The notes under the pieces were generated by a model that was not told the origin of the DNA, did not search any database, and saw only the letters and a list, made by a program, of their open reading frames with translations. From Snodgrassella gandavensis (GTDB taxonomy: Bacteria > Pseudomonadota > Gammaproteobacteria > Burkholderiales > Neisseriaceae): a stretch of 55,249 nt of DNA. This document shows, in pieces, positions 38,880 to 54,937 of the stretch; the first letter of the stretch is position 1, and every line of letters starts with the position of its first letter. Location: positions 1 to 55,249 of the forward strand of contig NZ_CAJZCE010000014.1 in NCBI RefSeq assembly GCF_914768025.1, read 5' to 3'. Made by a program: the position numbers and the translations under genes.

Positions 38880-39902
38880 TTATTTACCAGAAAGTCTGGC
38901 TAAACCTGACTTCAACATCAGTTTAGCCGCTTTCCCCCACATACCCGTGCGCATCAATAGCAAAATCGTAGCACAAGTTGACAAAGGTTTTTCCGCATAC
39001 TGCTGTTTAGCCAAAAGCAAAATAGCTACTTTTTCCTTCTCAGGCAAGTTAATTTTTGCCAGTTTACGACACAGCCGAAAATAATACAGATGAGCCTTAT
39101 ATAATAAATAGGCACAGCATTTTTTATCGCCTACCACAGCATCGGCATAGTCTGCCTGTGTTAAATATGCCTTAATACCATAAGCCTGTTTCAGATTCAT
39201 TTTCTGCACAATAGAATCCGGCCAGATACGATAATGCACCAAAGTTTGCGGATAATAAAAATATGTTTGACACTGATTCAGCACAGTCGGCGTATTCGCA
39301 ATATCCTCATAGGCAGGAATGGTAAAATCACACACATCTGCCACCAACATTCGCCGAAAAACCTTATTCCAGAAATAATGCTTACCATCCATAATAGCAA
39401 AGCGGTACAACTCCCCACTTTTCTGATGCAACAAAGTATTGGCAGGAGCAATAGACAAATGCTCATGATATTTAACTTTTCCACTGCCATCAAAAAACAC
39501 ATCATAATCAAATAGCACAACGTCAGGATGATACTGATTCAGAATAGCCTGTATCTGCTTAACAGCCTGCCGTTCAACCCAGTCATCCGAATCAATAAAC
39601 CAGACATATTCAGCATGGCTGGCCTGCAACAAACACTTGCGAACCTGAGTAATGCCCAGATTTTTCTGCCCACACAGCACACGAATATTCACATTTGGAT
39701 AACTTTGCTGATATTGACGGATAACAGCAAGTGAATTATCCGGCGAATAATCATCATAAAATATAACTTCAGTCAGTGCAGGTAAATCTGGCAGCAAAGT
39801 ATCCAGCAATCCGGAAAGATAGGATTCCACATTAAATACAGGAATCAGAATACTTAAATCCACCCTGCCTGCACCCGCGTAACTATCCTTTATCCCCTCC
39901 AT
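38880..39902 (-). CDS. GT2 family glycosyltransferase
   Basis: A 340-residue GT2 transferase. The N-terminal nucleotide-binding strand LSILIPVFNVESYL (17-30) is followed by YDDYSPDNS (49-57), and the metal-binding DSDD is at residues 104-107 (FIDSDDWVE). A C-terminal helical, basic region probably contacts the membrane. The ATG at 39902 is chosen because GAGG lies about ten bases before it and the upstream gene ends at 39907; the longer frame begins with GTG inside that gene. It is the last of a four-gene minus-strand glycan operon (42409 down to 38880). Confidence 0.88.
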   Translation of the reverse strand: MEGIKDSYAGAGRVDLSILIPVFNVESYLSGLLDTLLPDLPALTEVIFYDDYSPDNSLAVIRQYQQSYPNVNIRVLCGQKNLGITQVRKCLLQASHAEYVWFIDSDDWVERQAVKQIQAILNQYHPDVVLFDYDVFFDGSGKVKYHEHLSIAPANTLLHQKSGELYRFAIMDGKHYFWNKVFRRMLVADVCDFTIPAYEDIANTPTVLNQCQTYFYYPQTLVHYRIWPDSIVQKMNLKQAYGIKAYLTQADYADAVVGDKKCCAYLLYKAHLYYFRLCRKLAKINLPEKEKVAILLLAKQQYAEKPLSTCATILLLMRTGMWGKAAKLMLKSGLARLSGK

Positions 39903-39906
39903 AAAC

Positions 39907-40710
39907 CTATTCCTCAAAGTCACTTTTTATTATAGGCACCATCATACGTTGCGCACAGCCGAATACCGACAGCTGTCGCCATCCCATACGAATTTGTGCA
40001 GCTAAACGGCGATATCTAAAGCAAACTCTACTATAAAAATTGTTTGCCTGTGGTTTCAGATTATTCTGTGGTGTTATCGTCGAAACAAAAGAAACCGGTG
40101 ATTCCAAGCCATAATTAATACACTGATCCAGCTGAATCGCAGCGGCCGGATAGACCTGCCAAGCATTTAACTCATATGAACGACATAAAAATGCATCTGC
40201 CAATGCTGGTGCCGAATGTTTTGCTCTATTTAACAATTTCTGTGCACCTGAGGGAAATAGAATATATGCAGCCGCACCAGTTCGATCCTGATATAACTGA
40301 CGTAATTCATAGCCAGCAACAAACACATCGGCTTTTTTACCCAACCACTTACGACGATGGCGTGTTTCCAGATTCACATAATCCACTTCACCAATTCGGG
40401 AAAATAACGCTGCCAAAACATCAGCAGTTTTATGCGAAAGCAAAGCATCATCTTCAAGAATCAACCACGGCTTACCAGTGTCTAGCACATACTGCCATGC
40501 AGTCTTGTGACTCAAAAAACAGGCCACCTCAGCTGGGCGCATTTTACGTTCCCAACCATTTGCCAGTTGTTCATATCTCTCAATCAGAATATCAGAACTG
40601 TTAACAGCAGCCAGACGCTGCATCGGTATCTGTAAATGAGCCAGCTGCTTGCGCTGAAATTCCAACCGCTCAGATGAATGGTTCAGATTAATTACCAAAG
40701 CAGAAATCAT
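39907..40710 (-). CDS. GT25 family glycosyltransferase (LOS type)
   Basis: A 267-residue GT25 (LgtB/LgtE/Lex-1 type) protein. The N-terminus MISALVINLNHSSERLEF matches the family's start; the DxD-like metal site EDD is at residues 86-88 in WLILEDDALLS, and CFLSHKTAWQYVL precedes it. GT25 enzymes usually add galactose or glucose to LOS. It is clearly related to the GT25 gene at 41558 but not close enough to be a recent copy. It is 21 bp downstream of the neighbouring transferase gene in the same operon. Confidence 0.9.
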   Translation of the reverse strand: MISALVINLNHSSERLEFQRKQLAHLQIPMQRLAAVNSSDILIERYEQLANGWERKMRPAEVACFLSHKTAWQYVLDTGKPWLILEDDALLSHKTADVLAALFSRIGEVDYVNLETRHRRKWLGKKADVFVAGYELRQLYQDRTGAAAYILFPSGAQKLLNRAKHSAPALADAFLCRSYELNAWQVYPAAAIQLDQCINYGLESPVSFVSTITPQNNLKPQANNFYSRVCFRYRRLAAQIRMGWRQLSVFGCAQRMMVPIIKSDFEE

Positions 40711-41557: not shown

Positions 41558-42409
41558 TTATAACCGTGTCCAGCCATACATACGCACAACATCAAGCAAG
41601 CGCTGCCAATGTCGCCCCTTAACAAAAAATCTTTTAACTCTTTGTACTAAAGTCAGTTTAAAGCGCACACGGTGAGGAATATCCGAGTCCAGAGACTGGA
41701 AGGCCAGCGGTTCAACCAGAAATGCTTCTTTTAACTGGCCACCACTATAATGCCAAACCTTATCAATAGGATAAAAAAGGGTTTTACTTGCTAAAAGCAT
41801 GTTTTTAGCCCCCTGTAAAGATACAATATAACAACAGGCCAATGATGGAGCAATATCACATTCACAAGCAGTCATACCATTACTCAAAGCATGCAAACGA
41901 AAAATCTTCCACCTGACAATCGCCTTACTTTCCATTGAGTGCCATGACCTGCGTTTAAAAAATTGCCAGAATCGTGGACGAATAAACTGCTGTTGAGTAA
42001 TGCAAAAATTAACAGCTGTAACATCAATATCATAAAAAGGTCTTTTTAAAGTCAGGTTCAAAAAATCAAATGACTCATAATTTCTCTTATCAGCTAACAA
42101 AGAAACCAGCTCAGGTTTAAGCTGGACATCATCTTCCAGAATCAAAGCATAAGGTATATTTTCAGCCACTATTCGCTGCCATACGGCCTGATGAGACAAA
42201 GCACAGCCAATCTCCCCATTTACAGCCTTACGCTTACATTCCAGTGCAAATCTTTGCTGATTAAAAAAAACTTTCTGCTCATCAGTTAAACAATTACCAT
42301 CAACAGCACTTACTCTTTCAAAAGCAATACCCAGATTTTCCAATTGTTGTTTAACAAACATTAATCTATCTGGACGACGATCCAGATTAATTAAAAAAGT
42401 TTTGAGCAT
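41558..42409 (-). CDS. GT25 family glycosyltransferase (LOS type)
   Basis: A 283-residue GT25 transferase and first gene of the four-gene operon. N-terminus MLKTFLINLDRRPDRLMFV, the conserved EIGCALSHQAVWQRI (66-80), and EDD at residues 92-94 (LILEDDVQLKPE) are family hallmarks. Likely adds a hexose to the LOS core. Its start faces the start of the forward gene at 42611 across 201 bp, so the two share a divergent promoter region. Confidence 0.9.
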   Translation of the reverse strand: MLKTFLINLDRRPDRLMFVKQQLENLGIAFERVSAVDGNCLTDEQKVFFNQQRFALECKRKAVNGEIGCALSHQAVWQRIVAENIPYALILEDDVQLKPELVSLLADKRNYESFDFLNLTLKRPFYDIDVTAVNFCITQQQFIRPRFWQFFKRRSWHSMESKAIVRWKIFRLHALSNGMTACECDIAPSLACCYIVSLQGAKNMLLASKTLFYPIDKVWHYSGGQLKEAFLVEPLAFQSLDSDIPHRVRFKLTLVQRVKRFFVKGRHWQRLLDVVRMYGWTRL

Positions 42410-42610: not shown

Positions 42611-43684
42611 ATGTCGCAACATACTATTATTCTGGCCATGTCTAGCTACAGCGACTTTGCCTGTGCTATTAAAACCCATTTAGAATATCATAATTTCCAA
42701 GTGACCTTTATTGACAGCACTTCAGAAAAACTGAAAAAGCAGATAGATACCAATTTTCGCTACCCCAGCCTGAAAGCACACCTAATTCACACAGCTCGAA
42801 AAATTTTTCTGTCAGACTGTTCCTATAAAACCCATCTAAAAAAACAGATATACAACCAAAAATTACAGGAAAATATACATAGTATTCTGGGTAATAATCT
42901 TTATGACTATACTCTGGTTATTCGCCCTGATCTATTTTCCCTACCAGCTTTACAGTTACTGAAAAAACATACAAAAACAAATTTTGTGGGTTATCAATGG
43001 AATGGAATCAAACGATTTCCCAAAACCATTCCCACAATAGCTTTATTTGACCGTTTTTTCGTATTCGACTCTGCGGATTTGAATAATCCAGAATACAACC
43101 AGTACCACCTCAATGGAATCAGTAATTTTTATTTTGACATGTACCAGCCACAACCAGTCCCTCATAGCGGTTCCACTGCCTATTTCGTTGGATTACATGT
43201 AGACACCCGCATTGCAGCCATAGAGGCCTGCGCTAATGCCCTAATGCAAAATGGCGTGAGCTTAAATTTCAATATCAAATTTCGCCCATCCGAAGCCTAC
43301 AAAGCTGCCCAGTATTCATGCAGACAGATTCATGTTATTCCAGAAAATATTACTTTTGAAGATAACTTACAGCATGTTAACATGGCAGATATACTCATCG
43401 ATATCGTCAATCCCGTGCATAACGGTTTATCGTTCCGTGTATTTGAATCCCTATATTATCAAAAAAAATTAATCACTAATAACCCACAAATAAAAAGTTA
43501 TGATTTCTACCATCCAGATAACATCTTTATCTGGAGGAGAGCAGAAGACTTACAGCAAATTGCAGACTTTCTGGCAAAACCACTGATTAGCATCAATCCA
43601 GATATTGTACAAAAATATAGTTTTGCAAACTGGATCAAAAATATTCTGAATAAACCGCCCTTTCAGCCCATATCAGTTATATAG
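42611..43684 (+). CDS. unassigned surface-glycan protein, paralogue 1 of 3
   Basis: A 357-residue protein I do not recognise by family, with two close relatives in the window (46469-47476 and 50985-52031). Shared motifs run in order: YDYTLVIRPDLF (98-109), GYQWNGIKRFP (127-137), a LFDRFFVFD segment (145-153), NFYFDMYQP (172-180), GLHVDTRIAAIE (194-205), HNGLSFRVFESLYYQKKLITN (270-290, with the Glu279 likely important), YDFYHPDNIFIW (297-308), FLAKP, and a C-terminal KYSFANWIKNIL. The layout of an N-terminal half followed by a conserved ExxYYxKKLITxN loop resembles GT-B enzymes such as CgeB-like transferases, so a sugar transferase is my inference. It stands alone, divergent from the GT25 operon. 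Confidence 0.6.
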   Translation: MSQHTIILAMSSYSDFACAIKTHLEYHNFQVTFIDSTSEKLKKQIDTNFRYPSLKAHLIHTARKIFLSDCSYKTHLKKQIYNQKLQENIHSILGNNLYDYTLVIRPDLFSLPALQLLKKHTKTNFVGYQWNGIKRFPKTIPTIALFDRFFVFDSADLNNPEYNQYHLNGISNFYFDMYQPQPVPHSGSTAYFVGLHVDTRIAAIEACANALMQNGVSLNFNIKFRPSEAYKAAQYSCRQIHVIPENITFEDNLQHVNMADILIDIVNPVHNGLSFRVFESLYYQKKLITNNPQIKSYDFYHPDNIFIWRRAEDLQQIADFLAKPLISINPDIVQKYSFANWIKNILNKPPFQPISVI

Positions 43685-44136
43685 TCGAAAATAATTGCTA
43701 AAGAAACTATAGCCGAAGCTTTACTGGTACCAAATCCAGCTAAGTACGTTCAATTGCATCATCAGCTAAAAAGAATCAGCTAAAAGCTATTCTTCAAAAA
43801 CGTATATCCCAAATTACTCAACAACAATTTCACACCATATTGACAAACCTAAAGCTCTTTTCTACCTGGATATCAATGTCAGTCGAACAAACCTGTGTCT
43901 ATAACTCAACAGAAACACCAGCTTCAATGTATTCTTCATAACTACACATATCAAAACTAGCCAGATACTATAATTTTCCAAAATCACAGCATCTGGATAT
44001 AAATACTTACCAATATTCTATGTATGAAAAAAAGCAAATTAGCACTTCCAACTTACATTAAAATGTACAGCATGCATAAATCAAAATTTACTATGCAAAA
44101 CCGAATAATTCATATAGAAAAACTTTCTTTTATCAA
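43685..44136. other. intergenic, nothing recognised
   Basis: 452 bp between paralogue 1 and the end of msbA. A stretch at 43755-43930 reads open for about 60 codons on the plus strand (LKAILQKRISQITQQQFHTI) and could be a scrap of a transposase, but it has no start and I cannot assign it. A small frame at 44024-44206 overlaps the msbA end and is not called. Confidence 0.4.
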
Positions 44137-45924
44137 TTACTTTAATAAAGTGCGTTCAGCTGGATTACGGTTTTCGCCAAACTGCATACGGTGTAAAAAC
44201 GCATAACGACCATTTTTCGCCAGCAAAGCCTCGTGTTTACCCTGCTCCACAATTTTGCCCTGATGCATCACCACAATATTATCAGCATTTTCAATAGTCG
44301 AAAGCCGATGAGCAATGACAATTGTTGTCCGGTTTTTCATTAAAGTTTCCAATGCCGATTGTACTAATCGCTCAGATTCAGTATCCAGCGCACTAGTGGC
44401 CTCATCCAAAATCAAAATTGGTGCATCTTTTAACAATGCCCGTGCAATAGCCAAACGCTGTCGTTGTCCACCAGAAAGCTTCATTCCCTGATCACCTACT
44501 TCAGTCTGCAAACCTTCTGGCATATTACTAATAAACGCCCACGCATTAGCGGCTTTGGCTGCCTGAATAATATCTGCTTCTGTTGCATGCGGGGAACCAT
44601 AAGCAATATTATTGGCGATCGTATCATTAAACAAAACAACATCCTGACTAACCAGCGCCATCTGGGAACGAAGATTTCTCAACTCAAAATCCTCTACATC
44701 AATTCCGCCAATACTCAACCGTCCACTAGTAACATCATAAAACCGTGGAATCAGATTTACCGTAGAAGTTTTGCCACAACCCGACTCCCCTACCAACGCA
44801 ACGACACTACCTTGTTTAATCGTCAGATTCAAAAGATCAACTGCATTTTTATCTGCATGCTGATAACGCAAAGTCACATCCTGAAAAACAATGTCACCTA
44901 TAGGAGAAGCCAGCTGTTTTACACCTTGGTTTTTTTCTTCAGGTACATCCAGAAAACGGAATACACTGTCAGCAGCCATCAATCCGGTCTGTAACACACT
45001 AGACATATTGGTAATCCGTTTTAACGGATCAAACATCATCAACATGGCCGATAGAAAAGACATAAAATCACCAGCAGTAAAACCTGCATGACTGGCTCTT
45101 TTAGCGGCGACATACAAAATAATCGATAACGACGTGGCAATTAACAACTGGGTTACCGCGCTGCCGATTGAAGTATAGGATTGACGTCGTACAGCCAAAC
45201 TACGTAATGCCCGATTAGTCTTTTCCAAACGACTCTGTTCATAGTGTTGCCCACCATAAATACGTACAACCCGCGTACCATCAATAGACTCAGACAAAAT
45301 CTGCATGACCTGACCAAGATCATTCTGGCTTCTCGTTACCAACTGTCGGATACGCTTATTAATGATTCGTACACACCAAGCAATCAACGGAATCGTAACG
45401 AAAGTAATCAATGTCAATTGCCAGTCAAGATAAAACAACCAAATGAGAAGACCCAGAACAGTAACACCATCTTTAGCAAACACGGTAATCACATCAAAGC
45501 CAGCGGCCGTTATCCCTTTAGCATCATTGGTAATGCGCGACATCATGCGGCCACGGCTATTGTCCTGATAATAACCAATGGGTAGCATCATCATCTTTGC
45601 AAACAAATCACGCTGAATTACTTGAACCATCTGGTTAGAAATATAAGCACTGGTATATTCATTAATATAATTGGCGATGCCACGGAAAATAAACAAGCCT
45701 ACAATTTCAAATGGTACCCATTTCATGGCTTCAATATTTTTTTCAACGAAACCATTATCAATAATCGGTTTCAGTAAATAAGCAAAAAGAGGCCCAGTTA
45801 CGCCTACAACAACCATTGCTAACACGGAAATAAAAAAATACTTTACCAATCCGCGCATATATGGGAACAGTCTTTTATACAGATTCTGTGGTGAATAAGA
45901 ATTGGTTTCTTTACTTTTTTTCAT
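44137..45924 (-). CDS. msbA: lipid A export ATP-binding/permease protein
   Basis: A 595-residue ABC exporter with an N-terminal transmembrane domain of six helices (about 20-320) and a C-terminal nucleotide-binding domain. Walker A GESGCGKTST, Q-loop, signature LSGGQRQR, Walker B ILILDEATSALD and the switch His in VIAHRLSTI are present. It moves lipid A-core (LOS) from the inner leaflet for further transport. Position amid LOS transferase genes fits this job. The nearest gene to its right starts 545 bp away on the other strand. The annotation as MsbA rather than another flippase rests on size and motif match. Confidence 0.93.
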   Translation of the reverse strand: MKKSKETNSYSPQNLYKRLFPYMRGLVKYFFISVLAMVVVGVTGPLFAYLLKPIIDNGFVEKNIEAMKWVPFEIVGLFIFRGIANYINEYTSAYISNQMVQVIQRDLFAKMMMLPIGYYQDNSRGRMMSRITNDAKGITAAGFDVITVFAKDGVTVLGLLIWLFYLDWQLTLITFVTIPLIAWCVRIINKRIRQLVTRSQNDLGQVMQILSESIDGTRVVRIYGGQHYEQSRLEKTNRALRSLAVRRQSYTSIGSAVTQLLIATSLSIILYVAAKRASHAGFTAGDFMSFLSAMLMMFDPLKRITNMSSVLQTGLMAADSVFRFLDVPEEKNQGVKQLASPIGDIVFQDVTLRYQHADKNAVDLLNLTIKQGSVVALVGESGCGKTSTVNLIPRFYDVTSGRLSIGGIDVEDFELRNLRSQMALVSQDVVLFNDTIANNIAYGSPHATEADIIQAAKAANAWAFISNMPEGLQTEVGDQGMKLSGGQRQRLAIARALLKDAPILILDEATSALDTESERLVQSALETLMKNRTTIVIAHRLSTIENADNIVVMHQGKIVEQGKHEALLAKNGRYAFLHRMQFGENRNPAERTLLK

Positions 45925-46468
45925 TCGCTAGCCAGAACAATCAAATACATAAAAAATTTCATATAAATTAAAATACGAAACACGATAAAAGAGCGTGCTC
46001 ACCAAATTACTTGGTTATTCGCACACATAAACACAGCACAAATCTATTGCATTGAGTAAATATCCAGACTAAAACTATATCTAGAGTATAAAACTCCCAA
46101 GACTATACATTAGCAGTATTCTACCAAATCAAAAACAACCTGCATGAAATACTTAACATATAATTATATCTGTGATTGATATAAAATCATAACTCCGCGT
46201 AGCTACAACCCATATAAAGATAGCAAGTTTGTGTGTCGCTTGAATTTAGTTAAATATCGATTAAACACGTTCCCATACCATATATTCCAAATACAAAAGT
46301 GCTACAGACTAATTTCAGTCTGAAAAATTAATGCAAATAAGCCGAATATATAGCGATGTACAAAATAAATTAAAATATCAAATAATCATCCAATATTGAT
46401 TAAAGCATGCATAAACGTTTAAAATAAGTTGCCTAAATCCGTTGTTAATCTCTTATCTGTTGTATTCC
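45925..46468. other. long AT-rich intergenic region
   Basis: 544 bp between msbA (minus) and paralogue 2 (plus), which start away from each other. It is AT-rich and should hold both promoters. I see no hairpin, repeat or further gene. The frame at 46442 adds nine residues to paralogue 2 from a TTG, but the ATG at 46469 is the better start. Confidence 0.5.
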
Positions 46469-47476
46469 ATGACCCGTAAAACCATAATATTAGCCATGCC
46501 GCCGAGCAATGGTATAGTAGAATTAATTGAAAAAAATCTTCAATTTCATGGATACGAGGTATTACGTATAGATAGTATTTTAAAATTCAAATACAACAAT
46601 CTTTGGGAACGCACATACCAGTTTTTTCACAAACACATTACCAAGAGCAACACATATAAAAAGAAACTGAAAGTAAAACAAAGTTTTTATAAAGCACAAC
46701 AACTGCTTGCAAATAATCATTATGACTATACCTTAGTCATTCGTCCGGATATTTACCCACAGAATGTTCTAACTTTATTAAAACAACACACCAAGAACAA
46801 ATTTATTGGCTATCAATGGGATGGACTAAAACGATTTCCAGTAAAAAATATTATTCATCTATTTGACCAGTTTTATATTTTCGATCATACCGATTTAACT
46901 AACCCAGACTACCAAAACTATCAACTTCATAACATTACTAATTTTTATTTTGATATGGTACAGCCACACCGCGTCAAAAATAACAAACTATTGGCTTATT
47001 ATATCGGTGATCACCAAGCCTGCCGTGTCGCAGCAATAGAACACTGTGCCGAGAAATTAGCTAAAAATGGAGTAGATATCAAATTTATTATACCTACGAG
47101 CAAGACTAAAGATATTAAATGCTATAAATCAAAGCACATTACTTTTGGCAAACAAAACCGACTCTCCTATTATGAGAATTTAAAGCATGTCGATTCATCA
47201 GATATTCTGGTTGATTTTGTTATTGCCGGGCACAATGGACTGTCATTTCGTCATTTTGAGGCACTCTATTATCAGAAAAAACTGATTACTACTAACACAC
47301 ATGTTCAATATTATGACTTCTATCACCCAAATAACATATTTATATGGGATGAAAAAAATCTAGATGAAATACAGGAATTTCTGGCAAAACCATTTATTCA
47401 AATAGATACTCATATTGTAGAAAAATATAGCTTCAAAAACTGGATAAAAAACATTTTAGATAAAAGCTTCTATTAA
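46469..47476 (+). CDS. unassigned surface-glycan protein, paralogue 2 of 3
   Basis: A 335-residue relative of the proteins at 42611 and 50985. It begins MTRKTIILAMP, and has YDYTLVIRPDIYP, GYQWDGLKRFP, LFDQFYIFD, NFYFDMVQP, HNGLSFRHFEALYYQKKLIT, YDFYHPNNIFIW and KYSFKNWIKNIL in the same order. The N-terminal ATG at 46469 gives the family start; the ORF is open to a TTG at 46442. One conserved-motif difference is RHFEALYY, where the others have RVFESLYY. It has its own promoter space on both sides, and no partner gene is within 350 bp. Confidence 0.6.
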   Translation: MTRKTIILAMPPSNGIVELIEKNLQFHGYEVLRIDSILKFKYNNLWERTYQFFHKHITKSNTYKKKLKVKQSFYKAQQLLANNHYDYTLVIRPDIYPQNVLTLLKQHTKNKFIGYQWDGLKRFPVKNIIHLFDQFYIFDHTDLTNPDYQNYQLHNITNFYFDMVQPHRVKNNKLLAYYIGDHQACRVAAIEHCAEKLAKNGVDIKFIIPTSKTKDIKCYKSKHITFGKQNRLSYYENLKHVDSSDILVDFVIAGHNGLSFRHFEALYYQKKLITTNTHVQYYDFYHPNNIFIWDEKNLDEIQEFLAKPFIQIDTHIVEKYSFKNWIKNILDKSFY

Positions 47477-47827
47477 AAAATTCACCAATTAGAAATAAAT
47501 TAGCCTGAAAATGCTCAAGTCAGTACAGTTTGAGCAATACAGTCTGAAGCTAAATATATATAATAATATAACTATACACATAAGCTAAAAATGAATGCCA
47601 GATACCAAATCCATACAAAAGAACATTCTAAATAGTTTTATTTAAATCAATTATTTGGATGGAATTTAATTTACATTATTTCCATAAATATTAACTAATT
47701 TTTTAATTAAAAACTTAAATTAACATTTTAACGAATAATAATAATAATTTTATTTTATCTGCAGCAGAATTACATATGTGTACAAAACTAACTCTTTAAC
47801 ACAAAAGAATAAAGAATAGCCATTATT
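47477..47827. other. AT-rich intergenic region
   Basis: 351 bp between paralogue 2 and the HAD-domain gene, both on the plus strand. Very AT-rich; the end holds a weak ribosome binding site (AAAGAAT) before 47828. No gene or repeat seen. Confidence 0.5.
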
Positions 47828-49957
47828 ATGAATACTTCAAGCCTCAACTCTTTATTAGATTCGGTAAACCTTTACTATTCACAAAATAAAGCAGAAATAG
47901 ATACAAAATACATCAATAAAATGTTAAAAGAGCTGGAAAACTATCCGATTATATCTTTTGATGTTTTCGATACCGTATTAACACGTTTGTTTGAATGTCC
48001 CATTGATTTATTTGCCTGTGTAGAAGGCATACTAATTGAACAGAAAATCTTTTTGCCAAATTTTGCACAAAAACGTCTAATAGCAGAGGAAATCAGCAGA
48101 AATTATTATGCCAAGAAAGAATTTCAGGAAGAAATAACTCTAGAGAATATCTATACCCAATTATTATCATTTTATCCTGGACAAGAAAAAGAATTGAATC
48201 AGGCTCAAAATATAGAACTTGCTACTGAAAAATCAAGTATGGTTGCCGTTATCGACAACCTCTGTCTGATTGAGAAACTTAAAAAACAGGGTAAAAAGAT
48301 TTACTTTGTATCTGATACCTACTTTTCAAAACAATTTGTTCAGGAATTACTTCAGCATGCAGGACTTGCAGATTACGATAAATTATTTATTTCTTCAGAC
48401 CTAATGAAAACCAAGCATAGTGGCAGAATCTGGGAAGAAGTACAAAAAAATAATATCAATAATAAAATTTTCCATATTGGCGACAATCTATATTCAGATG
48501 TTATAAAACCAAATCAAAATGATATTAAAACCTATCACTATTCGCGCTTTCTAGGAGAAAGACGATTAGGCGCTCAACTATCACCAGCATTAGTTCCTTT
48601 CTCACTGCTACAGAAAATGAGTAGTTTATCCCAGAAAATCAACTCAGATGAAAATAATGAAGAATCAGAATTCTGGACAAATTTAGGTAACACATTTGGT
48701 GCAGTTATACTCCAAAGTTTTGTTTTATGGCTGGAACAACAAATAACGAAGTATAAGATTGAACACATATTTTTTTGTGCACGCGATGCGCAAATTATCC
48801 AGAAAGTATGGAATTTACTTGAAATGGATAAAAAACACCAAACAACATCCAGCTATCTTTATTTATCACGTCAGGTACTACGTTTTCCAGTTTTTTATAT
48901 AGACATAATCACAACAGGAAAATTATCAAATTTCTCATTAGATTTAATGATTAACGAATCCGTAAGAAAAGGAGAGTCCTATAAAACATTTTTCAATAGA
49001 ATAGGCATTAACAATAGCATATTAACAAAAACAAAATTTAAATCAAAATTTGGAAATTTAAACCAAAATTTTGATTTCGAAAAAATTTCTGAAATTAAAA
49101 ATTACATTCAATACGAACTAACACCTTATTTAGTCTCAATTTACCAAGATTACTATACTAGTGCTATGGCTTATTATGAACAAGAAGGTCTATTTAATCA
49201 TAATAAACGCATTGCTATTGTAGATTTAGGATGGAAAGGAACGCTACAAACCGCATTAACAGAACTCCGTGAGCATAAAGGTATTAAACACAAAATATAT
49301 GGTTTTTACTATGGTTTATTTAATCACAGTGCACCCGGACGTTTATACAAAAATGGCATAATGAAATCTGCGTTTTTCAACATGTTCCAACGACCAAATG
49401 AAGAATTGCTTTTAGAAAATTCTATAAATATTCTAGAAAATCTCCATTCGGCCAATCATCAGACAACCATAAATTTTACTAATCATTCTGACACAAGTCT
49501 GTATCTGCCAGTATTAAAGCCAGATACAGACTATACGTATATTAATCAGTTTAATCAAACAATTAATCTGTTTCAGCAAAGTACAATTCAAACAATTACA
49601 AAATGGGCACGAAACGAACACATTTTTGGTATTGGTTCTGAATGGATTAATGTTTCTGTTGCAACAGCAGCTATTTTACAAATTTGCATCACACCAAATC
49701 GTTACGAACAAAAATATCTGGGAAAAATCAGCCACTGTACGTTAAATGATCACCAAACATCATATCATTTAATACCACAGAAATTACCTGTAGAGAAAAA
49801 AGAAGTTATACAATTACTGACTTTAGGAGGCTGGCCTTGTGGAGTTATAGGGCATTGGAAAGCAAACAAAAATAAAATCAAACCAGACATATACAAAATG
49901 GCAATTCATTTTTTTAAACGATATCCCGAACTAATTAAAAATTATCTGGCGAATTAA
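47828..49957 (+). CDS. HAD-superfamily protein with unassigned C-terminal domain
   Basis: A 709-residue two-part protein. Residues about 40-240 form a HAD phosphatase-like domain: motif I SFDVFDTVLTR (Asp45 nucleophile, with Asp48 at the third position of DxxxT-type order), motif II Ser162-Asp163 in FVSDTYFS, and motif IV GDN at 218-220 with Asp224 (HIGDNLYSDV). The C-terminal 450 residues contain a segment FFCARDAQIIQKVWNLL and IYGFYYGLFN, as in the COG5610-type predicted hydrolases found in polysaccharide loci. I do not recognise a catalytic motif there. The gene is followed by a GT2 gene one base after its stop, so they are co-transcribed. A role in processing a sugar phosphate or nucleotide-sugar is possible. 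Confidence 0.7.
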   Translation: MNTSSLNSLLDSVNLYYSQNKAEIDTKYINKMLKELENYPIISFDVFDTVLTRLFECPIDLFACVEGILIEQKIFLPNFAQKRLIAEEISRNYYAKKEFQEEITLENIYTQLLSFYPGQEKELNQAQNIELATEKSSMVAVIDNLCLIEKLKKQGKKIYFVSDTYFSKQFVQELLQHAGLADYDKLFISSDLMKTKHSGRIWEEVQKNNINNKIFHIGDNLYSDVIKPNQNDIKTYHYSRFLGERRLGAQLSPALVPFSLLQKMSSLSQKINSDENNEESEFWTNLGNTFGAVILQSFVLWLEQQITKYKIEHIFFCARDAQIIQKVWNLLEMDKKHQTTSSYLYLSRQVLRFPVFYIDIITTGKLSNFSLDLMINESVRKGESYKTFFNRIGINNSILTKTKFKSKFGNLNQNFDFEKISEIKNYIQYELTPYLVSIYQDYYTSAMAYYEQEGLFNHNKRIAIVDLGWKGTLQTALTELREHKGIKHKIYGFYYGLFNHSAPGRLYKNGIMKSAFFNMFQRPNEELLLENSINILENLHSANHQTTINFTNHSDTSLYLPVLKPDTDYTYINQFNQTINLFQQSTIQTITKWARNEHIFGIGSEWINVSVATAAILQICITPNRYEQKYLGKISHCTLNDHQTSYHLIPQKLPVEKKEVIQLLTLGGWPCGVIGHWKANKNKIKPDIYKMAIHFFKRYPELIKNYLAN

Positions 49958-49958
49958 C

Positions 49959-50981
49959 ATGAATATTAATGAAAATCTCTATCCCATCAAAAGCTGGTCA
50001 AATATACAATCCGATAACATTAAACATGATAATTCAGTTGCCGTTATCATGCGCACTAAAAACCGCCCAGTACTTCTAGCACGTGCATTAGAAAGTGTTA
50101 TACAGCAAACCTATACAAATTGGCATTTGTATCTAATTAATGATGGAGGCGATGCTCAACCTGTAAATCAACTAATCGAACTTAATTTTATCGATTTAAA
50201 TCATAAAATCACTATTATACATAATACACATTCCTTAGGTATGGAAGCAGCATCAAACTGTGGCTTTAATATAGCCAATCAAGAATATTTAGTTGTACAC
50301 GATGATGATGATGCATGGCATCCTGATTTTCTGAAAGAAACTGTTACCTTTCTAAATACAGAACAACAGGCTGTAGCAGTATTAACTAATTGCACCATAA
50401 TTAATGAAGAAATTCAGGAAGATCAATCAACACAACTCAGTACAATACAATGGCCTATTTGGCATGATCAGATTGATATTACAACTCTAATTAGAAATAA
50501 TGTATCTCCACCTATATGTTTGCTTATTAGAATGGATGTAGCTAAACAAGTGGGTGAATTTAATAAAAATTTACCTGTTTTAGGTGACTGGGATTATATT
50601 TTGCGTCTTTTTAGAGCTGGTGAAATAAAAACATTAAATAAGAACTTGGCCTATTATTACCACAGACCAAATAACAATAATACATATGGTAATTCTGTAA
50701 TAGCGGCAATAGATAAACACCAAAAATATCATGTTGAATTTAGAAACTCATTAGTTCGACAATCAATTTTAGAAAATCAGGGTAATTATGGTATTTTACA
50801 TATTCTGTTAAATGACAGTAAAGAAAAATACGACCTCTTATCCCATAAAATAAATCAATTAGATCATAAAATTGGCGATATTCAGGGTCATGTTTATTAC
50901 TTAAGAAGAAAATCCTTTCCATTAAAAAGATTTGCTGCGAGTATAAGGCAGCTAATACGAAAGTGGAGGCATAAAACGTAA
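49959..50981 (+). CDS. GT2 family glycosyltransferase
   Basis: A 340-residue GT2 transferase. The nucleotide-binding strand VAVIMRTKNRPVLLARAL (27-44), TNWHLYLINDGG (53-64) and the acidic metal site DDDD at 115-118 (VVHDDDDAWHPDFLKE) are clear. The C-terminal part, about 260-340, is a coiled-coil, basic tail (LSHKINQLDHKIGDIQGHVYYLRRK broken by charged residues), which may tether it to the membrane or to partner proteins. It is coupled to the HAD gene (1-bp gap) and converges on paralogue 3 three bases later. Confidence 0.88.
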   Translation: MNINENLYPIKSWSNIQSDNIKHDNSVAVIMRTKNRPVLLARALESVIQQTYTNWHLYLINDGGDAQPVNQLIELNFIDLNHKITIIHNTHSLGMEAASNCGFNIANQEYLVVHDDDDAWHPDFLKETVTFLNTEQQAVAVLTNCTIINEEIQEDQSTQLSTIQWPIWHDQIDITTLIRNNVSPPICLLIRMDVAKQVGEFNKNLPVLGDWDYILRLFRAGEIKTLNKNLAYYYHRPNNNNTYGNSVIAAIDKHQKYHVEFRNSLVRQSILENQGNYGILHILLNDSKEKYDLLSHKINQLDHKIGDIQGHVYYLRRKSFPLKRFAASIRQLIRKWRHKT

Positions 50982-50984
50982 CAA

Positions 50985-52031
50985 TCAAAGAGGTAAATTT
51001 ATCTTTTCATATGGTGATAAATCTAGAATATTCTTTATCCAGTTACCAAATCCGTATTTTTTTACAATTTCACTGTCTACTGGTTTATAGGGTTTAGCTA
51101 AAAAATTCTGAATTTTTTGAGAAAGATCTTCTTTATGCCAAATAAGGATATTATCAGGATGATAAAAATCATACTTGCAAATAGTTTTATTATTAGTAAT
51201 TAATTTTTTCTGATAATACAAGGACTCAAAAACCCTGAAAGATAAACCATGGTGAAGAGGATTAACAAAATCTACAATAATATCTATTTCATTCAATATT
51301 TGCATATTTTCAGAAAAATCAATTGCATTTTCTTCACCAAAAGTAATAAGATGAGGATACTGATATTGATTAATTTTGTTTTGATTGCTAGTTGGAATAA
51401 TAAATCTTAACTGAATATTATTTTTCACTAACTCAGAAATACAATATTCAATATCAGCAACACGCTCAGAAACATGTGTGCCAACAAAATAAGCTATCCT
51501 ACTAGCGTGTCTTACTGGTTCTGGTTGATACATATCAAAATAGAAATTGGTTATGCCTGTCAGCTCATAATCCTGAAAGTCCTTATCAACTAAATCATGA
51601 GCATCAAAAACATAAAATTCATCAAATAAATTTATTATCTGCTTACTACATGGCATACGCCTTAAACCATCCCACTGATAAGCAATAAATTTTTTTCTGG
51701 TAAATTCTTTCATTAGCTGTAGTAATTTTACCGGATACAGATCAGGTCTAATGACAATAGCATAATCATATTTTGTTTCTGCAAGCAATGCTTTTGAATT
51801 GGATAACAGCAATTCCTCTTTTAATTTTACTTTATATAAAAAATTTTTGAATAACAGCTTTTGCATCGTACTACACAAGCGCTCTTTCAAACTTTGATAT
51901 TTAAAATACTTGATATATTCTGGAAAATTATCAATATACAATACTTCAAAGTCATAAAACTCCAGATTTTTTTTAATTTGCTGGTAGATATTACGACTTT
52001 TAGGCATACCCAAAATGATTGTTTTTTTCAT
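50985..52031 (-). CDS. unassigned surface-glycan protein, paralogue 3 of 3
   Basis: A 348-residue relative of the proteins at 42611 and 46469, on the opposite strand from both. It starts MKKTIILGMPKSRN at the ATG at 52031 (a TTG one codon before is unlikely). Motifs YDYAIVIRPDLYP, AYQWDGLRRMP, LFDEFYVFD, NFYFDMYQP, HHGLSFRVFESLYYQKKLITN, YDFYHPDNILIW and KYGFGNWIKNIL are in the same order as in its relatives. Its stop lies three bases from the end of the GT2 gene, and its start is 287 bp from rfbB on the other side. Confidence 0.6.
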   Translation of the reverse strand: MKKTIILGMPKSRNIYQQIKKNLEFYDFEVLYIDNFPEYIKYFKYQSLKERLCSTMQKLLFKNFLYKVKLKEELLLSNSKALLAETKYDYAIVIRPDLYPVKLLQLMKEFTRKKFIAYQWDGLRRMPCSKQIINLFDEFYVFDAHDLVDKDFQDYELTGITNFYFDMYQPEPVRHASRIAYFVGTHVSERVADIEYCISELVKNNIQLRFIIPTSNQNKINQYQYPHLITFGEENAIDFSENMQILNEIDIIVDFVNPLHHGLSFRVFESLYYQKKLITNNKTICKYDFYHPDNILIWHKEDLSQKIQNFLAKPYKPVDSEIVKKYGFGNWIKNILDLSPYEKINLPL

Positions 52032-52318
52032 CAAATATACCTTGTTTACCTTAATAAATTCATAAAGCGATTATATAATATAAATTTAAACCCAATCTAC
52101 GTTATATCATCATTACATCTATAAGAAAATATAACCAATCAAAAAATTTAAATATTTATCTTTTAATATAACTCAAAATAAAAAAACATATTCAATTTAA
52201 CATTATATTACTTATAAAAATAGGCTATACGATCGTGCATTTTATTTGAAATTTTTTATAAAAAAATGAATTTTATATTATAAAATACTACGTTTTACTA
52301 ATTTTTGAATGTAATTTT

Positions 52319-53389
52319 ATGAATATTCTTATTACTGGTGGAGCTGGATTCATTGGCTCTGCCCTTATCAGGTATCTAATCAATGAAACCGACCATAACA
52401 TTCTCAATGTTGACAAATTAACCTATGCTGGTAATCTTGAATCATTAGTAACCGTTGCAAATAATTCTCGCTACCACTTTTTTCAAGCTGACATTTGTGA
52501 CAAAAATCATATAATACAACTATTTAATAAGTTCCAACCAGATGCAGTAATGCATCTGGCTGCAGAATCACATGTTGACCGTTCAATTTCCAGTTCTACC
52601 GAGTTTATCCAGACCAATATTGTGGGAACTTTTCAACTACTGGAAGCAAGCCGTCATTACTGGAATGGCTTATCTAAAGAAAAACAGGATTTATTCCGTT
52701 TTCATCATATTTCAACTGATGAAGTGTATGGTGATTTAAGTGATTCAACTACAGAATTATTCACTGAAATTACATCATATGCACCAAGTTCGCCCTACTC
52801 CGCCAGCAAAGCCAGTTCTGATCATCTGGTTCGAGCTTGGTATCGTACTTATGGGCTCCCTATTATCATCACTAATTGTTCAAATAATTATGGACCTTAC
52901 CATTTTCCAGAAAAATTAATTCCATTAACCATTCTTAATGCATTGCAGGGAAAAAAATTACCAGTATATGGAAATGGTGAGCAAATTCGTGACTGGTTAT
53001 ACGTTGAAGATCATGCACGGGCTTTATATCAAGTTGTGACAAAAGCAAATGCAGGGGAAACCTATAATATCGGCGGACACAATGAACAGAAAAATATTGA
53101 TGTAGTAAAAGATATCTGTAATCTTCTAGATGAGTTAGTACCTAATAAAACACTAGGAATAACATCCTATAGCGACTTAATCACATTTGTTCCAGACCGC
53201 CCCGGACATGATGTTCGTTATGCTATCGATGCCAGAAAAATTAAACAGGATCTAGGCTGGGTACCTCAAGAAAGTTTCCAGTCAGGTTTGCGTAAAACTG
53301 TTCTATGGTATCTAAACAACCAGGAATGGGTAAATCGCATTTTGACTGGGGAATACCAAAAATGGATTCAAAAACAATATCAGCCATGA
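52319..53389 (+). CDS. rfbB: dTDP-glucose 4,6-dehydratase
   Basis: A 356-residue extended SDR enzyme that makes dTDP-4-keto-6-deoxyglucose, the second step of dTDP-rhamnose synthesis. NAD motif GGAGFIG at residues 7-13, the catalytic Thr133-Asp134-Glu135 (ISTDEVYG), and YSASK at Tyr160/Lys164 are present. Length is typical. The 287 bp before it is very AT-rich and should hold its promoter. rfbA follows by 76 bp. Confidence 0.96.
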
Positions 53390-53465: not shown

Positions 53466-54356
53466 ATGATTAAACGAAAAGGCATTATTCTGGCCGGAGG
53501 CTCTGGAACCAGACTTTATCCTATTACCATGGGGGTATCAAAACAGCTTTTACCTATCTATGATAAACCAATGATTTACTATCCTCTTTCTGTGCTCATG
53601 CTAGCAGGAATACGGGAAATCATGATTATTTCAACCCCAGAAGATTTACCTAATTTCAAAAAACTATTAGGTGATGGTCATGATTTCGGCGTTGAATTGG
53701 TGTACAAAATACAACCATCTCCAGATGGGCTGGCACAAGCGTTTATTTTAGGGGAAGAATTTATCGGTCAGGATAATGTAACGCTTATTCTGGGAGATAA
53801 TATTTTTTATGGGCAAAGTTTCGGTGCACAATTACAGCATGCTGCAAACCAGAAAAAAGGTGCTACAGTATTCGGATATTATGTTAATGATCCTGAACGC
53901 TTTGGTGTTGTTGAATTTGATACAACAGGAAAAGCATTATGCATAGAAGAAAAACCTATTAAACCAAAATCCAATTATGCCGTAACAGGGCTTTATTTTT
54001 ATGATAATGATGTAATTGAAATAGCAAAAAATATTCGCCCATCCGCCAGAGGGGAACTGGAAATCACTGATGTTAATAATGCCTACCTGAATGAAAAGTT
54101 GCTAGATGTTGAAGTACTTGGACGCGGCTTTGCGTGGCTGGACACAGGTACTCATGACTCGCTGCTTGAGGCCAGCTCTTTTGTCCAGACAATTGAAAAA
54201 AGACAAGGACTAAAAATAGCTTCACTTGAAGAAATTGCTTTTAATAATAACTGGATAAACTTAGACCAGTTGTTTACACGTGGCAAATTTTTTCAAAAAA
54301 CAAATTATGGACAATACTTATTAAAAATATACAACGAATTTTCAAAGAAAGCATAA
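53466..54356 (+). CDS. rfbA: glucose-1-phosphate thymidylyltransferase
   Basis: A 296-residue nucleotidyltransferase that makes dTDP-glucose from dTTP and glucose-1-phosphate. The signature GGSGTRL is at residues 11-17, followed by the conserved [28 protein letters not shown] and the late [12 protein letters not shown] are also typical. AAGGAA precedes the ATG. The gene is followed by rfbC, two bases later. Confidence 0.96.
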
Positions 54357-54358
54357 AT

Positions 54359-54937
54359 ATGAATGTTATTGAGACTAAGATAAAAGACTTACTTATTTTA
54401 GAGCCAAAAATTTTTGCAGATAATCGTGGCTGGTTTATGGAAAGTTTTAACCAAAAAACGTTTAACTCTATTCTTACTGCACATAATCAACCTGTTGTAA
54501 ATTTTGTACAAGATAATCATTCAATATCACATCGTGGTGTAATTCGAGGATTACATTATCAGGTCAATCCATATTCACAAGGTAAACTGGTACGAGTAGT
54601 TAGCGGTAAAGCGTGGGATGTTGCTGTAGATATACGAGTAACTTCACCAACATTCGGTCAGTGGGTAGGAATCGAGTTATCAGAAAAAAATCACCGACAG
54701 TTTTGGATTCCTGCGGGATTCGCACATGGGTTCATTGCTTTGGAAGATGATACCCAGTTTCTATATAAAACAACAAACTACTATTTTAAAGAATGTGAAC
54801 GCAGTTTATTATGGAATGACTCCGATATAGCCATTAATTGGCCAATCGAAGATAATATGCTAATCAAGCAAACAGATAAAGATAATACTGCTCCTGGCTT
54901 TAAAGACCTAATAGACAACAATATTGATTTGTTTTAA
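54359..54937 (+). CDS. rfbC: dTDP-4-dehydrorhamnose 3,5-epimerase
   Basis: A 192-residue RmlC-type cupin-fold epimerase, the third step of dTDP-rhamnose synthesis. The catalytic His is in RGLHYQ (His66) and the paired Asp in VAVDIRV (Asp91). The region QFWIPAGFAHGFIAL near residues 118-133 is also conserved. Length is normal. It is coupled to rfbA. The last gene of the pathway, rfbD, does not follow; an IS element begins about 100 bp away. Confidence 0.95.
   Translation: MNVIETKIKDLLILEPKIFADNRGWFMESFNQKTFNSILTAHNQPVVNFVQDNHSISHRGVIRGLHYQVNPYSQGKLVRVVSGKAWDVAVDIRVTSPTFGQWVGIELSEKNHRQFWIPAGFAHGFIALEDDTQFLYKTTNYYFKECERSLLWNDSDIAINWPIEDNMLIKQTDKDNTAPGFKDLIDNNIDLF

Follow-up and report, generated by a model that had tools for sequence, protein, structure and literature searches.

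The window analysed here, a 55,249-nucleotide stretch of Snodgrassella gandavensis DNA (contig NZ_CAJZCE010000014.1), carries three intact open reading frames (ORFs) whose products, 335-357 amino acids long, are 48-52% identical over their entire length. Copies 1 and 2 share 49% of their residues, as do copies 1 and 3, and copies 2 and 3 share 52%; the three align colinearly from end to end and have in common the motifs from YDY..VIRPD through KY.F.NWIKNIL, a likeness far beyond chance. The ORFs and this alignment agree with the initial annotation, which had reported three related genes with shared motifs at the positions and on the strands given below. Alternative TTG starts lie at 46442 for copy 2 and at 52034 for copy 3. 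When the whole 2.5 Mb genome was searched with copy 1, the three known copies were recovered and no fourth was found. The locus contains the following features:

38880..40710, minus strand: further transferase genes of the locus, one GT2 (PF00535, 84.3 bits) and one GT25 (PF01755, 85.4 bits)
41558..42409, minus strand: GT25-family transferase, adjoining copy 1 (PF01755, 109.1 bits)
42611..43684, plus strand: WaaS/CpsH-family glycosyltransferase copy 1 (357 aa; NF053598, 263.7 bits; clade support 99/99; dN/dS 0.07-0.15)
44137..45924, minus strand: msbA, encoding the lipid A exporter; separates copy 1 from copy 2 (TIGR02203, 722.3 bits, cut-off 602)
46469..47476, plus strand: WaaS/CpsH-family glycosyltransferase copy 2 (335 aa from the ATG; NF053598, 278.6 bits; clade support 100/99; AlphaFold GT-B model; dN/dS 0.06-0.14)
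47828..49957, plus strand: gene for a HAD-domain protein, part of the variable cargo that separates copies 2 and 3 (TIGR01549, 25.6 bits, cut-off 23.3)
49959..50981, plus strand: GT2-family glycosyltransferase, variable cargo between copies 2 and 3 (PF00535, 84.1 bits)
50985..52031, minus strand: WaaS/CpsH-family glycosyltransferase copy 3 (348 aa; NF053598, 258.7 bits; within one of two copy-3 clades; dN/dS 0.13-0.17)
52319..53389, plus strand: rmlB, dTDP-glucose 4,6-dehydratase (TIGR01181, 505.7 bits)
53466..54356, plus strand: rmlA, glucose-1-phosphate thymidylyltransferase (TIGR01207, 504.5 bits)
54359..54937, plus strand: rmlC, dTDP-4-dehydrorhamnose 3,5-epimerase (TIGR01221, 243.9 bits)

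The gene order is thus GT25, copy 1, msbA, copy 2, HAD-domain gene, GT2, copy 3, rmlB. The three genes had been placed between known sugar-transferase genes; this holds for the GT25 gene beside copy 1 and the GT2 gene beside copy 3, but msbA, the HAD-domain gene and rmlB are neighbours as well. The rmlBAC genes directly adjoin copy 3, and rmlD lies on another contig (G000:C2). Separate promoters had been proposed; gene orientation alone speaks for them, and the 41 sigma-70 promoter-like sites counted between 42300 and 52500 were no more than in shuffled sequences (mean 54.5, SD 8.6). The 709-amino-acid product of the HAD-domain gene has its HAD-type domain at the N-terminus, and its long C-terminal remainder has no Pfam or NCBIfam match. 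A relative of this gene lies just outside the set, past rmlC, in one other Snodgrassella genome (G006, locus L062).

Family assignment and predicted fold

All three proteins match the NCBIfam model NF053598 (WaaS/CpsH family glycosyltransferase) at 259-279 bits over positions 1-318 of its 318, far above the curated cut-off of 60 bits. They are therefore members of an already named glycosyltransferase family, which upholds the initial idea of a glycosyltransferase family and corrects the statement that the proteins match no named one. Pfam held no usable model for any of the three and returned chance-like matches only, which would explain the earlier lack of a family name. Searching solved structures by sequence likewise gave chance-like matches and no convincing one, and no strong match to a non-glycan family was seen.

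Escherichia coli K-12 WaaS, also called RfaS (from NC_000913), matches NF053598 at 179 bits. Two reviews, citing Klein et al. 2011, describe WaaS as a lipopolysaccharide (LPS) inner-core rhamnosyltransferase, the rhamnose needing a third Kdo (PMC4651636, PMC6358824). The E. coli protein resembles the Snodgrassella proteins in its full-length match to the model, in its invariant residues and in its glycolipid-type locus. However, waaS is a single-copy gene of the waa operon in E. coli K-12, whereas the S. gandavensis genome holds three members, with rmlBAC and msbA as neighbours. The resemblance to E. coli WaaS is also slight, at 27% across 146 columns in the C-terminal half, and a change of donor is therefore possible. 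A search for E. coli-type WaaZ, the enzyme that adds the third Kdo, lacked a positive control and gave no match in three of three genomes. As for the other half of the family name, no paper in the literature searched mentions both CpsH and WaaS, and WaaS does not appear in the passages seen of a streptococcal paper. Scanning viral contigs revealed no relative of the three proteins; three weak phage matches showed 25-40% identity over 30-57% of the protein.

We modelled copy 2 with AlphaFold from an alignment of 15 proteins, obtaining two Rossmann domains that face each other (mean pLDDT 86.7, pTM 0.82). When this model was compared with the PDB by Foldseek, the 50 matches listed were mostly GT-B glycosyltransferases, with E-values down to 2e-8, query TM-scores of 0.38-0.62 (0.50-0.62 for the top ten) and identities of 7-14%; among those listed were also non-transferases of similar fold, namely the secretion protein Asp1 and UDP-sugar 2-epimerases. 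Of the viral matches with a name, many were glycosyltransferases. The predicted fold is GT-B, and the guess that the proteins look like GT-B enzymes was right because these matches are mostly of that type. GumK and the GT4-like GT-B transferases TreT, SenB and WbnH share the two Rossmann domains, with query-normalised TM-scores of about 0.5-0.6; the family differs from GT4-like transferases in lacking the E-x7-E motif and any convincing sequence match to solved structures.

Eight residues, G180, R186, G257, R261, E264, K271, T274 and N276 in copy 2 numbering, are common to all 35 family rows aligned, E. coli WaaS included. Retaining GT4 enzymes carry an E-x7-E motif, whose first Glu is missing from 35/35 rows, and PF00534 (Glycos_transf_1) gave no match at E up to 1; the proteins thus show neither mark of that group. 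The missing Glu, with R186, R261, E264 and K271 invariant, fits an inverting enzyme, though it is not proof of one, and the proteins are probably inverting. Forming an alpha-linkage from dTDP-beta-L-rhamnose implies inversion. The N-terminal half, over which the wide alignment is of poor quality, showed no invariant residue that would serve as catalytic base. For Acinetobacter baumannii KdoT, an inverting GT-B mechanism that does without an essential base has been proposed (PMC12856342).

Distribution and history of the set

Copy number was compared across the genus Snodgrassella: seven of 14 genomes carry exactly three copies and the other seven none, so the genes are not present as identical copies in all strains. 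One genome without a copy (G007) is only 60% complete, and one with three (G004) is 86% complete, with its copies on two contigs. Synteny maps show no member of the family in the stretches from the seven empty genomes, two of which (G003, G005) begin at a contig end and miss the place. It is mildly notable that, in the related genomes examined, either all three genes are present or none is.

Matches were found in 2/11 genomes from other genera of the family Neisseriaceae and in 1/16 other genomes of the order. Within the former, G016 has a single member, which is interrupted, and G023 has one intact member (299 bits, the best score of the survey) and one interrupted. The interrupted genes (loci L070 and L071) lie far from rmlC. 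In an even sample of the phylum, ten genomes of 398, our own included, exceeded the NF053598 cut-off and seven more had matches below it. Lactococcus lactis alone matched among the 14 control genomes of the two NF053598 surveys; the E. coli control was silent although K-12 WaaS scores 179 bits, so that 10/398 is a lower bound. Either that control strain is without waaS or the first look of the survey can miss diverged members. A pattern-based, non-exhaustive scan put names to carriers, which include Snodgrassella Nev4-2, wkB298, WF3-3 and the metagenome-assembled genome S-bin9, together with three Acinetobacter species. The strain descriptions in PMC9239279 give the hosts as Apis cerana for wkB298, Bombus pensylvanicus for WF3-3 and B. 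nevadensis for Nev4-2. A trait confined to bumblebee strains was rejected, since the carrier wkB298 is from Apis cerana.

A tree built from 35 rows unites all seven copies 1 in a single clade (99/99) and all seven copies 2 in another (100/99); copies 3 split into two clades, of four rows (100/99) and three rows (96/91). Paralogues within a genome are 46-53% identical (seven genomes, three copies each), and orthologues, putative ones in the case of copy 3, average 74, 71 and 62% for copies 1, 2 and 3, copy 3 going down to 47%. The frames of all 21 copies in the seven genomes are uninterrupted, and the dN/dS values listed above, calculated among four genomes and rough for the G006 pairs because their dS is above 1, show all three copies to be under purifying selection. 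The clades, identities and dN/dS values indicate that the triplication is old, that each copy has been kept under selection and that there is little sign of exchange among copies. Exchange was assessed by sliding a 40-column window along the same seven genomes and three copies: in 20 of the 21 proteins, every window was at least as close to the nearest orthologue as to any paralogue from the same genome. Only copy 3 of G004 departed from this, with six windows closer to a paralogue by small margins. Divergence by duplication and recombination had been proposed earlier; the tree and the identities bear out old paralogues, but recombination among the copies is not supported.

What lies between copies 2 and 3 varies. 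The HAD-domain and GT2 genes stand there in the S. gandavensis genome (G000), nothing in G009, only a short GT2 fragment in G006 and other short genes in G010; G004, G008 and G013 have the HAD-domain and GT2 genes plus a further gene. This extra gene (loci L061, L064 and L069) was scanned in one of them, L061:8185-8982, and is a polysaccharide pyruvyl transferase (PF04230). A pyruvylated glycan is thus possible in some lineages.

G002 is without the three genes and groups with G000, G009 and G010 on a tree of the nearby sstT (95/93), a single, slowly changing gene. Between rmlB and msbA (L059, 4389-10198) it has an alternative glycan cassette: two GT4 genes, a gene for a DXD transferase and one of mannose-1-phosphate guanylyltransferase (ManC) type. 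This one clear case suggests that the whole cassette was swapped for other transferase genes. Relatives of the G002 ManC-type gene and DXD transferase also adjoin rmlB in G003 (L060). In three further genomes that do not have the set (G001, G011 and G012; loci L058, L067 and L068), rmlB and rmlC stand side by side, with no adjoining rmlA relative in the stretch covered.

Rhamnose genes and the role of the three transferases

We hypothesized that L-rhamnose is the sugar transferred, and rate this donor as slightly more likely than not. Across the phylum sample, rmlC exceeds its cut-off in 10/10 carriers and in 267/398 genomes overall, a weak co-occurrence (hypergeometric p 0.017, which ignores relatedness); six of the seven genomes below the NF053598 cut-off also have an rmlC match, and G067 (54 bits) has none. 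Six of 12 WaaS-family genes, in five of ten genomes, lie within 10 kb of rmlC (G000 copies 2 and 3, G031, G219, G365 and G370). Other transferases are found near rmlC as well: in these ten genomes the figure for GT4-type matches is 11 of 76, and six of the genomes hold at least one such nearby match. With distances counted by eye from listings and genomes that are not independent, the difference gives a Fisher p of 0.010 by gene and 0.017 with one WaaS gene per genome. In 5/10 carriers, and also in G016 and G023, a long distance or a contig break separates the gene from rmlC. Among the genomes so placed are G196 and four of the five from family f30, a family with proteins that cluster with E. 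coli WaaS.

Three Acinetobacter species carry close homologues (52-55% identity in the best segment), one per locus as far as seen, versus three in Snodgrassella. They sit among GT25, GT8-like and other transferase genes, and in Acinetobacter qingfengensis rmlBDAC is one gene away; no rml genes were found in the 8 kb flanks of the other two loci. The outer core locus OCL6 of A. baumannii carries rmlBDAC and is predicted to direct the synthesis of an L-rhamnose-containing lipooligosaccharide (LOS) (PMC4172580). In this respect OCL6 is a possible parallel to the A. qingfengensis locus and to that of Snodgrassella.

We propose a model in which the three copies are paralogous dTDP-L-rhamnose-dependent GT-B transferases, inverting, with a distinct LOS-core linkage for each copy, and give it somewhat better than an even chance. 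The adjacent rmlBAC and the distant rmlD would make dTDP-L-rhamnose, from which each copy would take L-rhamnose and add it with inversion to a different position, most likely of the LOS core. These additions would take place at the cytoplasmic side of the membrane, ahead of the flipping of the lipid by MsbA, and would leave a core carrying several rhamnose residues. Kept or lost as one cassette, the set would help to set the glycan type of a lineage. A further step, which we advance only tentatively, is a dedicated oligo-rhamnose module with one rhamnose and one linkage per copy, swapped en bloc for other transferase cassettes, which would give bee-gut symbionts LOS types that are switchable through repeated use of a single family. 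The copies had been thought to add different sugars or linkages. Given the adjoining rml genes and the precedent of WaaS, rhamnose for all three is the likelier case, so different sugars are not favoured; different linkages most likely hold.

The three proteins could instead be WaaS-family GT-B transferases of the LOS core that use different donors, such as UDP-hexoses, with the rml genes serving other transferases of the locus. NF053598 is defined by sequence and not by donor, the old paralogues, 46-53% identical within a genome, leave room for such change, and rmlC is found in 14/14 genus genomes, seven without WaaS genes among them, so the rhamnose pathway also serves something else. Yet the only family member found with a described function is described as a rhamnosyltransferase (PMC4651636, PMC6358824), and several genera have rml genes close to a member of the family; we regard different donors as the less probable case, though a serious one. 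Redundant or decaying duplicates without separate roles are very improbable: interrupted members do occur in two other genera (the sole member in G016 and, in G023, one beside an intact second), but every genus copy is uninterrupted, dN/dS stays at 0.06-0.17 per copy among the four genomes, and copies 1 and 2 form position-specific clades.

GT25 genes and msbA as neighbours are usual for LOS loci. This, and the company of GT25 and other transferase genes kept by the Acinetobacter homologues, makes it unlikely that the set builds another surface glycan, be it a capsule, an O-chain or a glycoprotein glycan. That reading draws on the G031 homologue, which adjoins a Bac_transf initiating transferase, and on a Wzy_C-type protein found once in each of six genus genomes (open frame 609-634 aa). 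The G000 protein (L074:1594-3423, on G000:C4) also matches Wzy_C_2 and PglL_A, as O-glycosylation ligases do, and looks like a protein O-glycosylation ligase, not WaaL. Such a PglL-like gene is, however, present in genomes both with and without the set, and because the sole Wzy_C-type match looks PglL-like, LOS is a likelier product of the locus than LPS with an O-chain. No Snodgrassella LOS structure was found in the literature searched, though one may exist.

These results give a family name and, on the model of rhamnose addition to the LOS core, a testable donor to three proteins beyond the reach of Pfam's naming, and leave the understanding of how such enzymes work unchanged. They also point to variation at a glycan locus of a bee-gut symbiont; the surface of this bacterium may have a part in strain and phage specificity. 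With three members per locus, versus one in E. coli K-12 and in each of the three Acinetobacter loci, Snodgrassella offers a natural set for locating the residues that determine linkage. Separately, the PglL-like protein suggests general protein O-glycosylation in Snodgrassella.
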